Shown: in pieces, positions 20,673 through 61,482 of the stretch
Layout of the letters: every line of letters begins with the position of its first letter
How positions within the stretch are numbered: position 1 is the first letter of the stretch
Assembly (NCBI RefSeq): GCF_032271945.1
Contig: NZ_CP130319.1
Span: forward strand, 4,669,001 to 4,733,000
DNA length: 64,000 bases
From: Paenibacillus sp. MBLB1832
Lineage (GTDB): Bacteria > Bacillota > Bacilli > Paenibacillales > NBRC-103111
Direction of reading: 5' to 3'
Program-made: the position numbers and the translations under genes
Notes under the pieces: generated by a model
The model's database searches: none
What the model was told of the DNA's origin: nothing
What the model saw: the letters and a program-made list of their open reading frames with translations, nothing else

Positions 20673-21617
20673 TTACAATTGTGAGCTGGCAAAACTTTCA
20701 TTAATATGAGTGGTCAACTCAAATGGCGTTTCTTGATATACATAGTAGTTCAACCAGTTTGAGAACAGCAAATTCGCATGCGCTCTCCATGTATTGTAAG
20801 GCTGTCTGCTTGGATCATTATTTGGATAATAATTGTTCGGGATGTCAATTGGCAAGCCTTTGGCTACATCGCGGTCATACTCCCATTTCAACGAACAGGC
20901 GTCATATTCAGAATGACCCGTTACGAAAATATGCTTGCCATCTTTTGTCGCCACGATATACACACCAGAATCTTCAGACTCGGAGAGAATCTCTAACTCT
21001 GGACATCGCTCAATATCGGCACGGGTGATGTCGGTATGACGTGACTGCGGCACATTAAACACCTCATCGAAACCGCGCAGCAGCTTCGTGTTCGGAACCG
21101 TGACGGTGTGCGGGAATACGCCGAACATCTTTTTGTCCAAGCCATATTTCCGTACGCCAAAGTGATGGTACAAGCCCGCTTGCGCAGCCCAGCAAATGTG
21201 CAGGGTTGAGGTTACGTTTTGCTTGCTCCACTCCAGGATTTGCGTCAGCTCCTCCCAGTAATTCACATCCTCGAATTCCATTTGTTCCACAGGAGCACCC
21301 GTAATGATCATACCATCGAGCTTTTCATCTTTGATATCATCAAATGTTTTGTAGAACATATCCAAATGCTCGAGCGATGTATTCTTGGAGGTATGCGTCT
21401 TAGGATGAAGCAGCACGAATTCCACTTGCAGCGGCGTGTTCCCAATTAAGCGCAGCAGCTGGGTTTCTGTCGTTTCTTTCGTAGGCATTAGATTCAGCAA
21501 AGCTATGCGAAGTGGACGAATGTCTTGATGATACGCGACAGACTCATCCATGGTGAAAATGTTCTCTTGGTTTAAAATTTCTTTGGCAGGCAGGTTGTCA
21601 GGAATCTTGATTGGCAT
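20673..21617 (-). CDS. metA: Homoserine O-acyltransferase, predicted acetyl-CoA type
   Basis: First committed step of methionine synthesis. From the ATG at 21617 (AGAGGAG 8 bases ahead) the protein has 314 residues. Numbering then matches known MetA exactly: nucleophile C142 in [10 protein letters not shown], and H235 and E237 in TGHSEYDA. Position 111 is glutamate (GAPVEQMEF). Published work on MetA specificity ties E111 to acetyl-CoA and G111 to succinyl-CoA, so I predict an acetyltransferase despite the common succinyltransferase label. It leads the operon behind the SAM-I riboswitch. Confidence 0.93.
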
Positions 21618-21651
21618 CCTGTTCACTCCTCTTCTGTAGTTTTATAAATGC

Positions 21652-21710: not shown

Positions 21711-21840
21711 CTCTTATCTCCCAGATTCGCTGTTCGCAGCGTTTCCGCAAGAATTAGCACCGTGCTCCCCTTTGTTTCCAAAGGCTTGTCGGTTGCCGGG
21801 TGTCATAGGGCTAGTCCCTCCACCTACTCTTGATAAGAAA
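21711..21840 (-). promoter_or_regulatory. SAM-I (S-box) riboswitch controlling metA-metI-metC
   Basis: The minus strand shows the canonical S-box elements in order: CTTATCAAGAG, GGTGGAGGGACT, GCCCTATGACACCCGGCAACC, GCACGGTGCTAATTC and the closing GGGAGATAAG that pairs with the 5' CTTATC. S-adenosylmethionine binding should favour the terminator and shut off the operon. Confidence 0.96.
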
Positions 21841-21863
21841 ATGTAACGTATGTGATTAGCACT

Positions 21864-21891
21864 ATCATACTATAATTTTGACCAAAGTCAA
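21864..21891 (-). promoter_or_regulatory. Sigma-A promoter of the met operon
   Basis: On the minus strand TTGACT and TATGAT are separated by 16 bases and sit about 25 bases before the riboswitch. Confidence 0.7.
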
Positions 21892-22005
21892 TATCCCATG
21901 TAGAAACCGTTGTCACCTATGCCATAAATTTTTAATCACCGACCTAGCTTCAATCCCATATGTTATTTAGACTAGAATTCCCCTTGTTTCACCAAACTTT
22001 TTGGC

Positions 22006-22035
22006 TTGAAACATTAGGTTATGAACGGGTATACT
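22006..22035 (+). promoter_or_regulatory. Probable corA promoter
   Basis: TTGAAA at 22006-22011 and TATACT at 22030-22035, 18 bases apart, about 180 bases before corA. This implies a long leader RNA. Confidence 0.6.
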
Positions 22036-22075
22036 AGACAAGTATTCGACACGGACGGAAAAGGAGGGCATACGC

Positions 22076-22162
22076 TTGGACGGAGAACCGAGGAGTAGCA
22101 CCTGCAAATTAAACAAACAATTTCAAACTGTAGGAATGCAGTCGGTTATTCCCTCATCCTGA
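22076..22162 (+). CDS. Possible leader peptide upstream of corA (28 aa)
   Basis: AAGGAGG stands 8 bases before a TTG that opens 28 codons (LDGEPRSSTCKL and on to IPSS) and ends in TGA at 22162. The last 10 codons run through the 5' arm of the hairpin described below, so a translating ribosome would hold it open. The peptide resembles no family I know. In Salmonella, corA also has a leader ORF (corL), but I see no sequence likeness. Confidence 0.4.
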   Translation: MDGEPRSSTCKLNKQFQTVGMQSVIPSS

Positions 22163-22197
22163 GCTTTGCTCTTCTAGATGACCAACCGGCTGATTCC
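22133..22197 (+). promoter_or_regulatory. Large hairpin in the corA leader
   Basis: GGAAT plus CAGTCGGTT pairs with AACCGGCTG plus ATTCC: 14 base pairs with a single bulged G. The 3' arm ends 5 bases before the corA ribosome site AAGGGG. No T run follows, so it is not a simple intrinsic terminator. Confidence 0.6.
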
Positions 22198-22215
22198 ATT
22201 CTAAGGGGTGGGCAG

Positions 22216-23151
22216 ATGAAAACACGGTTGGTTCAAAATGGTATTTTCACGCTAGTTGACGATGTGACCGCTGCGCTTACACCGCCTAGCCAAGGCTTCT
22301 ACTGGATTGATGCGGGAATCGAGGATTTGGAATTACTTCAACCTCTCTTCCATTTGCATGATTTGGCTGTTGAAGACTGTCTAAGTGAGGAAGAACAGCG
22401 TCCTAAGATTGAATTTTATGACTCGCATTATTTTATCGTTATTAATAGCATTCGATTCGATGATGAAGAAATTTTCTTACGCGCACTTAATTTATTCCTA
22501 AGTAAACATGTCATAATTACTGTTACTCGCCAGAAAATCAACGAGCTTCGTGCGCTCAAGCCCTTCCTTTGGGAGGAAGAAGTCAATAGCGCCGACCGTT
22601 TCCTTTATCATTTGGTCGATCTTGTTGTCGATAACTATGTGGCTGTCGGTGACCGAATTGAAGCCAAGATCGAGAAGCTGGAAGAAGATATTCTGATGGC
22701 GACGAAAAAGACACATTTGAATGAGATTATTGGACTTCGTTCAGAGATCTTATGGTTGAAAAAAGTGCTCGTTCCGCAACGCGATGTGATCGGCACGCTC
22801 GGCAAAAAAGAACTGCGGCTGATTGATCATCAGCTTCAGAAATATTTCGGCGACATTTATGAGAATGCCGTCAAAATCGTAGATACATTTGATACGCTCC
22901 GCGATCTCATGGGGAACTTACGAGAGGCTTATCAGTCGAGCCTAGCGAACCGCGCGAATGATATCATGCGTGTGTTTACGGCATTGACGACGATCTTCAT
23001 GCCGCTGACCTTCATCACGGGGGTATTCGGGATGAATTTCGATAACATTCTCGGCCTGCATGTAGCGCATGGCGACGAAATTGTGCTGGCCTTCATGGGT
23101 GTGCTCGGTATTGCCATGTATGTGCTTTTCCGCAAGAAAGAATGGTTGTGA
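22216..23151 (+). CDS. corA: CorA-family magnesium/divalent cation transporter
   Basis: Pentameric Mg2+ channel in the cytoplasmic membrane; 311 residues. A long cytosolic domain (alpha/beta, then coiled helices from about 140 to 245) leads to two C-terminal membrane helices. The signature GMN is at 272-274 in TGVFGMNFDN, at the end of the first helix, and the protein ends in the basic RKKEWL, as in CorA. The start ATG follows AAGGGGTGGG. Co2+ or Ni2+ may also be carried. The gene has a long structured leader with a small ORF, which suggests post-transcriptional control. Confidence 0.93.
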   Translation: MKTRLVQNGIFTLVDDVTAALTPPSQGFYWIDAGIEDLELLQPLFHLHDLAVEDCLSEEEQRPKIEFYDSHYFIVINSIRFDDEEIFLRALNLFLSKHVIITVTRQKINELRALKPFLWEEEVNSADRFLYHLVDLVVDNYVAVGDRIEAKIEKLEEDILMATKKTHLNEIIGLRSEILWLKKVLVPQRDVIGTLGKKELRLIDHQLQKYFGDIYENAVKIVDTFDTLRDLMGNLREAYQSSLANRANDIMRVFTALTTIFMPLTFITGVFGMNFDNILGLHVAHGDEIVLAFMGVLGIAMYVLFRKKEWL

Positions 23152-23261: not shown

Positions 23262-24521
23262 TTACGTGAGCTTAATTTTGACAAATTTACGCTTGCCGAC
23301 TTGAAGGATGTCTCCATCCTGCGGTGTGATTTGCACAGTAATATCCGTGATTTTCACTTCATTGAATCTTACGGCACCTTGCTCTATACTCCGTCTTGCT
23401 TCACCGTTCGAGGCCTGAAGTCCTAGCTGAACGAGCAGCTTAATAAGCCCAATGCGCTCCGCATCCAAGTCGTTGCGGCTCAGGCTTACTTCTTCAATTT
23501 CTTCTGGCAGCGCGCCCTTTTGGAAAACCGTAAGGAAATGCTGCACAGCTTCCTCGGCCACTTGCTCGCCATGGTACATGGCTACATACGTTTTGGCCAG
23601 GTTCAGCTTCGCATCTCGGGGATGAATCGTACACGCTGCCAAGCCTTGGCGCATCTCCTCGATTTGTTCAAATGACAGCACAGTCGTCAATTCAAAATAT
23701 TTGAGGGTGAGCGTGTCTGGAATGGACATGGTTTTGCCAAACATCTCATTTGGGGACTCATTGATACCGATGTAATTGCGCAGGCTTTTGCTCATTTTCT
23801 GAGCGCCGTCCAGCCCCTCAAGAAGCGGCATCAAGATCGCAACTTGTCCCTCTTTTATCTCATAAGCGCCTTGGAGCGTGCGCCCCATCAAAATGTTAAA
23901 CGTCTGATCGGTTCCGCCTAATTCGATATCGCTCTCTAACGAAACCGAGTCATAGCCCTGCATCAGCGGGTAGAAAAACTCGTGCACATGAATGGCCTGA
24001 TTCGCCGCATAGCGCTTCGCAAAATCATCCCGTTCCAGCATTCGCGCTACGGTCATCTTGCCAGCCAGACGTAGGACGTCATCAAACTTTAGCTCCCCGA
24101 GCCAGGATGAATTGTAGTAAAAAGTTGTCTTCGTAATGTCCAGAACTTTGGACAATTGGGTTTGGTAGGTTTGTGCGTTGCGCTTCACATCCTCCTCTGA
24201 AAGCTGCTTGCGCGTCTCGGATTTCCCCGTCGGGTCGCCGATCCGGCCTGTGAAATCACCGATGATCAACTGGACCTCGTGGCCCAGATCTTGGAACTGG
24301 CGGAGCTTTTGCAGGACGACGGTATGCCCGATGTGGATGTCAGGCGCTGATGGATCCAAGCCTAATTTGACTTTTAACGGCTTCCCCGTCACAACAGACT
24401 TGATAATTTTCAACTTGAGCGCTTCTTCTGGTACAATGTCTGCTGCGCCTCGTTTGAGAATTTGGAGCTGATGCTCCACTTGGTGTTGCTGCTCTTCGGT
24501 TAACTTCTCCCATGAACTCAT
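23262..24521 (-). CDS. tyrS: Tyrosyl-tRNA synthetase
   Basis: 419 residues, class I synthetase. The HIGH-type motif is DIHIGHTVV near 57-62 and the KMSKS motif is in AQKMSKSLRNYIG. The tyrosine-binding GGTDQ is present in IELGGTDQTFN. A C-terminal S4 RNA-binding domain covers about 355-419 (EARRSIEQGAVRFNEVKI). The ATG follows GGAGGG. The length and motifs fit the TyrS type found in Bacillus. It is controlled by an upstream T-box. Confidence 0.97.
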   Translation of the reverse strand: MSSWEKLTEEQQHQVEHQLQILKRGAADIVPEEALKLKIIKSVVTGKPLKVKLGLDPSAPDIHIGHTVVLQKLRQFQDLGHEVQLIIGDFTGRIGDPTGKSETRKQLSEEDVKRNAQTYQTQLSKVLDITKTTFYYNSSWLGELKFDDVLRLAGKMTVARMLERDDFAKRYAANQAIHVHEFFYPLMQGYDSVSLESDIELGGTDQTFNILMGRTLQGAYEIKEGQVAILMPLLEGLDGAQKMSKSLRNYIGINESPNEMFGKTMSIPDTLTLKYFELTTVLSFEQIEEMRQGLAACTIHPRDAKLNLAKTYVAMYHGEQVAEEAVQHFLTVFQKGALPEEIEEVSLSRNDLDAERIGLIKLLVQLGLQASNGEARRSIEQGAVRFNEVKITDITVQITPQDGDILQVGKRKFVKIKLT

Positions 24522-24549: not shown

Positions 24550-24840
24550 AAACAAAAAAGACAACCTCCACGTCCACAAAGGGACGAGAAGGTTGTCTCG
24601 CGGTACCACCCTAATTAAAGAGTCGCTTGCACGCCATAGGCAGGCAGCTGCTCTTTCACTTAGAAATTTAACGGCAAATCATTGCCGGGTGTAGACTACT
24701 GATGCTTCAAGAAGCACGTTCCCCTCACCAACTCAGAACTGTAATTCGGAAATGAAGCATGCATCGGTTTGCACCGTCCACCGACTCTCTGTTGCAGCGG
24801 CTACTTTCCTACTTTGGGCTATCGCCCGTGTTCGTCATCG
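24550..24840 (-). promoter_or_regulatory. T-box leader of tyrS
   Basis: A perfect T-box core AGGGTGGTACCGCG is at 24599-24612 on the minus strand. The terminator hairpin (GACAACCT...CGTCC / GGACG...AGGTTGTC) with six T is at 24550-24598. Upstream the Stem I AGAGAGTCGGTGG element is visible. A TAC triplet in GAATTACAGTTC is a possible tyrosine specifier, though I could not fold the whole stem by eye. Confidence 0.9.
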
Positions 24841-61226: not shown

Positions 61227-61435
61227 AATCGCGGTATTGGGCAACAAATGAACATGAGTTGCTTCCTGATTTAACGCGACCCTTTCCTCGAAGGATGTCG
61301 TAAACGGCACCATAGGCAGGTATCCTGACTCTCCAGCCAAGCGCTTGGCTGAATTACAGTGGCGGGACCGTGCTGGACTCTAACCAGCTTCCCTTTTAAC
61401 TAATAGACTCCATACTGAAATCTATCAGCACCTAC
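61227..61435 (-). promoter_or_regulatory. Cobalamin riboswitch controlling btuFCD and cob genes
   Basis: The minus strand shows the B12 elements in order: GTAGGTGC, AAAGGGAAGCTGGTTAG, AGTCCAGCACGGTCCCGCCA, CTGTAATTC and the B12 box AGAGTCAGGATACCTGCC. A TATAAT-like -10 lies about 15 bases upstream. Adenosylcobalamin binding should reduce expression of the operon. Confidence 0.95.
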
Positions 61436-61482
61436 GGCTGCAAATTATACTATCAATCTAATTGTCGATTATAGACGTTCTC

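Follow-up and report, generated by a model that had tools for sequence, protein, structure and literature searches.

An acidic/proline leader peptide upstream of corA in Paenibacillus: a probable magnesium-responsive translational switch

Introduction

What does a short open reading frame (ORF), which precedes a magnesium transporter gene and shares its sequence with one arm of a large hairpin, do for the expression of that gene? The question is raised by the corA locus of Paenibacillus sp. MBLB1832, which lies in a stretch of 64,000 nucleotides (RefSeq assembly GCF_032271945.1, contig NZ_CP130319.1, positions 4,669,001 to 4,733,000 of the forward strand; hereafter the window, whose own numbering is used throughout). 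An earlier reading made from the letters alone (the sequence-only reading) had suggested that formation of the hairpin depends on how far ribosomes advance through the ORF, with a logic resembling that of the enterobacterial corL and mgtL leaders and without likeness to the M-box riboswitch. Based on the conservation of the ORF and on folding models of its leader, we consider it probable that the leader is a cis-acting leader-peptide switch, in which a ribosome-destabilising, Mg2+-sensing peptide would turn corA translation on at low Mg2+.

The gene in question, corA (22216..23151, plus strand), encodes a Mg2+/Co2+ transporter of 311 aa (PF01544, E 7.1e-62; TIGR00383 above the cut-off), which has solved CorA structures among its relatives, e.g. 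3jcf, and for which P. pectinilyticus, at 99%, is the nearest named relative by CorA. A consensus scan located a probable sigma-A promoter, TTGAAA - 18 nt - TATACT, at 22006..22035 on the same strand (10 of 12 positions), and the TATACT element is likewise present upstream of corA in close relatives. The short ORF and its strong ribosome site are present as first described: the Shine-Dalgarno sequence AGGAGGG (22062..22068, plus strand) is followed by a leader ORF with a TTG start at 22076 and a TGA stop ending at 22162 (22076..22162, plus strand), assigned here by its order-wide conservation and encoding the 28-aa peptide MDGEPRSSTCKLNKQFQTVGMQSVIPSS. The placement of the hairpin was also correctly given, with its 5′ arm inside the ORF and its 3′ arm ending 5 nt before the corA Shine-Dalgarno sequence AAGGGGTGG (22203-22211). 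Three features are additional to that reading, namely the acidic/proline head of the peptide, the conservation of this head across the order, and an additional, predicted anti-Shine-Dalgarno role of the 3′ arm.

Results

Within the order, an ORF preceded by a Shine-Dalgarno sequence and opening with [M/L/V]-[D/E]-x-[D/E]-(x)-P was found in 139 of 149 distinct corA upstream regions. Near variants of this motif open the ORF in nine others (MDGDRS twice, MDGERS, MDIDRS, MEGDRS, MDGADP, MDGNPA twice and MDAGPS), a list that was drawn up after the misses of a first, narrower motif had been seen; the narrower motif fits 70 of the 80 named loci, with nine variants and one locus having none. Only one region, L095 from a metagenome-assembled genome, is without the leader ORF, and it was excluded from the folding sets, which leaves n = 148. 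The regions were drawn from 60 genomes, that of strain MBLB1832 included, from 80 named genomes, and then from class and order searches; 130 + 80 loci were reduced to 102 + 55 distinct 250-nt upstream sequences, from which eight out-of-order sequences were subtracted to give the 149, and because these come from related species the counts are not independent events. The order search returned an ortholog in 111 of 119 genomes and none at that threshold in eight (four of family f8, three of f1 and one of f6, families being numbered by the tool and not named), and 15 of the 111 are outside the upstream set, 14 of them belonging to family f10 and one being the partial genome G059. The leader was found in all ten families of the order that have a corA ortholog, in f3 and f7 as variants only, and the motif was missing from all eight corA orthologs of another family in the same class. 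The comparison with relatives thus left the proposed ORF standing, since its head or a near variant is kept in 148 of the 149 distinct leaders.

Four side observations concern these upstream regions. The far upstream part of L095 resembles, by eye, an S-box leader. Two relatives in one genus, L204 and L207, carry MDGNPA, with Asn at residue 4 where Asp or Glu stands elsewhere. One corA ortholog (G032:C1:3913698-3914633) has a single in-frame TAG, and its leader ORF (MDGDRPRSRR..., L033) is intact. Outside the order, three of eight orthologs of family f32 (L143, L145 and L146) have a different Shine-Dalgarno-preceded ORF of 61-74 aa that extends 44 nt into corA; by eye these ORFs share a stretch near ALRSAYDLIL..IWPR, and that of L145 begins MKTSDPD.

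The letters of the leader ORF vary as those of a coding sequence would. The Shine-Dalgarno-like match before it is 6/6 in 140 of the 148 leaders and 5/6 in the remaining eight, and the start codon is ATG in 121, TTG in 26 and GTG in one, the ATG of some close relatives occupying the exact place of the TTG in the window. Residue 2 is D in 116 and E in 32; residue 4 is D in 117, E in 27 and another residue in four, so that an acid is kept there in 144 of 148, and a proline follows at residue 5 or 6 in 143. Entropy at codon positions 1/2/3 amounts to 0/0/1.15 bits for codon 2, 0.12/0.25/1.56 for codon 3 and 0.10/0.12/1.08 for codon 4. There are 25 different six-residue heads among the 148 leaders, and beyond the head the peptides diverge, with lengths of 27-56 aa and conservation that fades after residues 5-6; no NCBIfam family matches the peptide up to E 1. 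Because codon positions 1 and 2 are nearly fixed, position 3 is variable, and D and E exchange for each other, it is the amino acids that appear to be under selection; such codon-periodic variation with D/E exchange is unexpected for a conserved RNA element and points to selection for two acids one residue apart. Judged from this pattern of substitution, the leader ORF is a real coding ORF, with the acids and the nearby proline of its head (codons 2-5, Asp-Gly-Glu-Pro, 22079..22090, plus strand, the presumed ribosome-destabilising and Mg2+-sensing stretch) under selection.

The head is also rare elsewhere. In its narrower R?P form, the motif has a background rate of five in 533,358 bases, about 0.004 per 400 nt. 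In the strain's own genome (G000), seven matches to the pattern were obtained, among which the corA leader is, by eye, the sole ORF of fewer than 60 aa with a clear ribosome site. Genome-wide scans with head patterns (pattern 1 in G000, G045 and G037; pattern 2 in G000, G034, G037, G048, G049 and G053) likewise gave the corA leader, by eye, as the only such match in G000, G037, G045, G048 and G053, and the scan with pattern 2 returned no leader in G034 and G049.

These findings bear on two other explanations. A metal-binding riboswitch, in which the RNA would sense Mg2+ directly and the ORF would be incidental, could account for the two alternative folds described below, and Mg2+ riboswitches such as the M-box do exist in Bacilli; we nevertheless hold it to be very unlikely, given that the best-conserved part of the leader varies with codon periodicity and exchanges D for E, that no Rfam family matches, and that stem sequences differ, by eye, between clades. 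That the peptide acts in trans, e.g. on the CorA protein, is barely credible: the head is conserved, and Salmonella has small peptides acting on Mg2+ transporters, MgtR and MgtU (PMC8092293; statements taken from this and the other papers cited refer to excerpts of them), but the length of 27-56 aa, the fading of conservation after residues 5-6 and the overlap of the ORF with the switch all speak for a role in cis.

The arms of the hairpin, GGAATGCAGTCGGTT (22133-22147) and AACCGGCTGATTCC (22184-22197), form 14 pairs, among them one G-U, and leave one G bulged. The local stretch 22125-22205 folds with -25.9 kcal/mol (z -3.69, 1 of 200 shuffles being as good), and the fold of the leader as a whole (22036-22260) stands out less (z -1.85, 11 of 200). 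Four regions, all on the plus strand, can be distinguished. Region 1 (22086..22106), which contains the proline codon, is the part of the ORF able to pair with region 2 as an anti-hairpin in the minimum free energy (MFE) structure of the ribosome-free leader. Region 2 (22129..22147) lies within the leader ORF and includes the 5′ arm. Region 3 (22184..22197) is the 3′ arm and, in the MFE structure, also the anti-Shine-Dalgarno strand that pairs with the corA start. Region 4 (22203..22231) comprises the corA Shine-Dalgarno sequence, the ATG at 22216 and codons 4-6. In the predicted 3:4 pairing, region 4 is closed by region 3 plus its 5′ flank (22182-22197), through CCAACCG (22182-22188) with CGGUUGG of corA codons 4-6, CUG with CAG just 5′ of the ATG, and AUUCC with GGGGU of the Shine-Dalgarno sequence.

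Comparison of leaders supports these pairings to different degrees. Three alignments were used: A1 with 30 genus leaders (L074 and L157 being excluded as divergent), A2 with 16 of 19 leaders picked by peptide head (L030, L031 and L094 being excluded as members of other clades), and A3 with 12 leaders of one group, four of ten of another, and L125. In the window's genus, hairpin 2:3 is 95.8% paired and nearly invariant among 29 distinct sequences, the prevailing form of 3:4, CUGAU-U-CC with GG-AUCAG beside the ATG, reaches 97.4% pairing and shows a change of both partners in a single leader (by eye L053), and 89.9% of the cells of 1:2 are paired. Other clades follow, by eye, the same 3:4 scheme with different letters, such as CUGAUUUUUUCC with GGAGUGAAUCAG, GUUCC with GGAAC, and, in Cohnella, UCCUGCAUG with CAUGCAAAGGA. 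In the P. elgii/ehimensis clade, RNAalifold gave 2:3, and this structure was then counted; it contains compensatory changes in 11 cells of 6 out of 17 pairs and reaches a covariation score of 0.203 vs 0.123, which none of 500 shuffles attained, with the caveat, raised by the tool itself, that relatedness alone can yield such a score. RNAalifold on the clade labelled Paenibacillus sensu stricto (17 leaders) predicted other helices and not 2:3. Compensatory change thus speaks for the 2:3 stem in a clade other than that of the window, and the hairpin of the sequence-only reading withstood the comparison with relatives, while the 1:2 pairing is the weakest and least certain part of the scheme.

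How ribosome position could act on these folds was calculated, in an equilibrium model with a ribosome placed along the leader, as the energy cost of making the corA start (-16..+3) accessible. In a sweep over 101 leaders, 94 had a lower cost when the ribosome stood on codons 3-8 than when it stood on codons 13-24 (means 8.22 vs 11.02 kcal/mol), and the mean difference was +2.78 for the real leaders vs -0.36 for 303 middle-shuffled controls (sampled codons). A repeat on 47 later-collected leaders gave a mean of +3.32, the difference exceeding 1 kcal/mol in 38 of the 47 vs 8 of 141 controls. Across all 148 leaders, the cost averaged 9.41 kcal/mol without a ribosome, 6.82 with one initiating on the leader and 11.08 with a second at codon 18, an order that was absent from the shuffled controls (n = 296; 7.68, 8.46 and 8.34 kcal/mol in the same three states). 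In 129 of the 148, the mid-ORF state cost over 1 kcal/mol more than the head-only state, and in none did it cost over 1 kcal/mol less, compared with 49 and 56 of the 296 shuffles. At the best of seven ribosome positions, at least 8 nt switched partner in 91 of the 148 leaders vs 79 of 444 controls. In these models, the untranslated and the fully translated leaders are more closed and the head-occupied leader is more open. The proposal that ribosome progress through the ORF decides on the hairpin thus gains support across the leader set, with the window itself being a weak case; the competition of 2:3 with the corA start is a prediction of these folding models.

The same leader ORF could instead control transcription termination, either intrinsic or Rho-dependent as in enterobacterial mgtL and corL, rather than corA translation, and the direction of control could then reverse if the 2:3 stem was the terminator. 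We regard this as unlikely, the models having region 3 close the corA start, yet parts of the leader set are in favor of it. U-runs of at least five occur in 44 of the 148 leaders vs 12.7% in shuffles, a loose terminator-like criterion selects 30 of the 148 vs a shuffle mean of 8.8 per 148, and among the 16 of these 30 matches that were listed, a U-run directly follows the apparent 2:3 stem in some (by eye L079, L152, L193 and L208); moreover, corL and mgtL act through Rho (PMC11552253). However, none of the 30 loose matches falls in the window's genus, where such a U-run occurs in only one of 30 leaders; a formal scan found no terminator-like site in the window leader (21800-22300), L126 or L085; the U-run lies inside the leader ORF in five of the 16 loose matches listed; and the stem extends beyond the U-run in the folded L121, L126 and L129 leaders. 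An added layer of termination is possible in lineages outside the window's genus.

Two narrower versions of the terminator idea were also considered, of which the first was set aside. For an intrinsic-terminator attenuator of the trp type in the window, the leader offers no terminator-like site and the genus no loose match. For the idea suggested by the U-runs of L042 and L044, no terminator was found in the two relatives formally scanned, the loose criterion being still enriched elsewhere.

Discussion

We propose the following translational mechanism for the corA leader. Ribosomes would initiate on the leader ORF and meet first the acidic/proline head, Asp-Gly-Glu-Pro in the window and Asp/Glu-Gly-Asp/Glu-(x)-Pro in relatives. 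When cytoplasmic Mg2+ is low, this head would destabilise the ribosome and cause it to drop off or stall, so that only region 1 is occupied; region 2, left free, could pair with region 3, and the resulting hairpin would remove the anti-Shine-Dalgarno strand and allow corA to be translated. At high Mg2+, ribosomes would traverse region 2 and break the hairpin, and region 3 would shut the corA start and lower corA expression. When the leader is untranslated, 1:2 and 3:4 would pair and corA would likewise be off. In this scheme, the ON state most likely corresponds to hairpin 2:3, an anti-sequesterer that keeps its 3′ arm from covering the corA start. Because the layout matches that of Salmonella mgtQ in the features readable from sequence, we infer that the leader is a Mg2+ sensor with ribosome drop-off as the event, and that control is translational and switches corA on at low Mg2+.

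Several observations weigh against this mechanism. The second acid is missing in three leaders (MDGNPA twice and MDAGPS) and the proline in five (MDGDRS twice, MDGERS, MDIDRS and MEGDRS), and, the proline codon lying in region 1, it may act by RNA pairing, as in mgtQ. The switch of the window's own leader is weak (8.9/6.2/8.9 kcal/mol for the three states), only 2 nt change partner in its MFE test, and with an elongating footprint alone the effect is nil (8.8 vs 8.9). Its MFE structure with only the head occupied keeps 3:4, so that kinetic, co-transcriptional formation of 2:3 would be needed there; in the window 2:3 would be the first to form as the RNA is transcribed, an order of events that equilibrium models leave out of account. 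In the genus, 2:3 has no two-sided change and the covariation of 1:2 is not above shuffles, and since 2:3 and 3:4 are almost invariant as well, the genus alone cannot prove the folds. In the P. elgii/ehimensis alignment, rows L186 and L191 leave much of 2:3 unpaired, and a control slid by +1 column also has eight two-sided cells, though only 31.6% of its cells are paired; the counted structure is favored over slid controls because it was derived from that very alignment. The U-run enrichment in other lineages is a further point of this kind.

The Mg2+ systems of the genome are in line with a Mg2+-sensing leader. Rfam searches gave no match for the leader at the gathering cut-off, nor up to E 5 for 21850-22350, and the covariance model of the M-box (RF00380) has no match in the leader, as the sequence-only reading had maintained. 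The M-box was not found in the own genome, for which 105 of 158 first-look candidates were scored, nor was MgtE (genome 95.6% complete), and TIGR01524, for the MgtA-type ATPase, has below-cut-off matches only. It is because neither M-box nor MgtE was found there that the context fits. Over-cut-off M-boxes are present in 2 of 13 genomes tested and over-cut-off MgtE in 4 of 30, the own genome being included in both sets. In family f8, none of four genomes had a CorA match, and MgtE is present in the single f8 genome that was searched for it. On balance we lean slightly toward a wider proposal, namely that the order gave up M-box and MgtE in most tested members and that an unrelated acidic-proline leader reads Mg2+ through the ribosome and switches the main CorA importer translationally, which would make it a Gram-positive sensor separate in origin from mgtL and mgtQ and kept through ten families while its stems were rebuilt clade by clade.

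Two arrangements of these genes were observed in passing. One of the two M-boxes in tested genus members (G002:C36:885358-885528) shares its strand with a CorA paralog (884318-885235), which it closely follows. In family f4 (G039:C4 and G047:C44) the leader and corA are closely preceded by an MgtE domain encoded on their strand, the leader heads being MDAEPS or MDAGPS.

The same architecture could also answer a signal other than Mg2+, such as the supply of EF-P or ABC-F factors, the L31/zinc state, or prolyl-tRNA charging. In enteric bacteria, L31 and the ABC-F factor EttA counter the destabilisation (PMC8092293, PMC11282234), and the proline and the second acid are conserved to about the same degree (143 and 144 of the 148), which would suit such a signal. 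The leader set cannot speak on the identity of the signal, because the leaders were collected through corA. We think such a signal quite unlikely, as in the genome-wide head scans of a few genomes the sole short Shine-Dalgarno-preceded ORF precedes a Mg2+ transporter gene, and the own genome yielded no M-box.

The likeness to the corL and mgtL leaders proposed by the earlier reading stands, with the closest analogue now refined to mgtQ, an upstream ORF between mgtC and mgtB in Salmonella (PMC8092293); it is closer than corL because control of corA looks translational. Both are short ORFs with acids and a proline near the start (in mgtQ acids at 2 and 5 and proline at 4); both have, as predicted for the corA leader, stem-loops 1:2 and 3:4 that alternate with 2:3, 3:4 hiding the ribosome site of the transporter; and in mgtQ, as we infer here, aborted translation of the upstream ORF favors 2:3 and transporter translation, the control being translational (PMC8092293). 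They differ in that mgtQ has 8 aa vs 27-56 aa in the corA leaders, serves MgtB and not CorA, is intergenic in a virulence operon and not a 5′ leader, and is described from enteric relatives, with an mgtQ-like ORF in Brucella, whereas the corA leader extends across an order of Bacilli (PMC8092293). In mgtQ the proline codon matters through the 1:2 RNA pairing and not as a residue (PMC8092293).

MgtL of mgtA in E. coli and Salmonella shares an acid/proline head, EPDP, and drop-off at low Mg2+ that raises a Mg2+ importer, but it works through a Rho-dependent terminator and alternates acid and proline where the Paenibacillus head reads acid-Gly-acid-(x)-Pro (PMC11282234, PMC11552253). CorL of the same bacteria is likewise an upstream ORF before corA with mutually exclusive folds, and its translation is inverse to corA expression; it differs in being Rho-dependent and described in enteric bacteria, a comparison made by description and not residue by residue (PMC11552253). 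The corA motif RNA is also a conserved RNA before corA with a proposed response to divalent cations, but it comes from Gammaproteobacteria and metagenomic DNA (PMC6429828), and an Rfam search of the Paenibacillus leader had no match. The M-box (RF00380) provides Mg2+ control of a Mg2+ transporter in Bacilli, but it has no counterpart in the leader or, as far as found, in the own genome. An mgtE motif is described in Thioalkalivibrio, with corA unmentioned in the excerpted main text (PMC11109978), and a mycobacterial M-box controls an upstream ORF, the M-box itself being the sensor (PMC12810186).

What the corA leader has in common with these leader peptides is a short ORF with its own ribosome site in cis to a Mg2+ transporter gene (148 of 149 distinct upstream regions), N-terminal acids with a proline kept as amino acids (D/E at residue 2 in 148 of 148), and, in folding models over the leader set and weakly in the window, mutually exclusive folds read by ribosome position. 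No Rfam or NCBIfam match relates it to mgtL, mgtQ or corL, a comparison made without aligning the enteric peptides to the leader peptide. By analogy, the leader looks like one that works as mgtQ and mgtL do, with no sequence relation found. Among the open-access matches listed, a coverage that leaves subscription papers and preprints aside, none described a leader peptide for corA, whether in Paenibacillus or elsewhere among Gram-positive bacteria.

If this holds true, Mg2+ sensing by a nascent peptide would be a recurrent solution and not an enteric oddity, and it would explain how Mg2+ uptake is controlled in bacteria where neither M-box nor MgtE is found. The 148 leaders with their 25 heads are a ready set for identifying which residues cause ribosomes of Gram-positive bacteria to drop off when Mg2+ is low, and they include natural controls, namely leaders without the second acid (MDGNPA, MDAGPS) or without the proline (MDGDRS and others).

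Other regulatory RNAs and the genome

The surroundings of corA hold further RNA elements, all on the minus strand. A SAM riboswitch (S box, 64.2 bits) at 21711-21839 precedes a gene divergent from corA (20673-21626, minus strand), which we take to encode a homoserine O-succinyltransferase, and a T-box leader (102.6 bits) at 24577-24835 precedes the gene at 23262-24521 (minus strand), presumably for a tyrosyl-tRNA synthetase. A cobalamin riboswitch (76.7 bits) lies farther away, at 61298-61450. With 5.85 Mb at 95.6% completeness, the genome of the window falls below the size range of the 29 listed members of its genus, which runs from 6.3 to 9.2 Mb.
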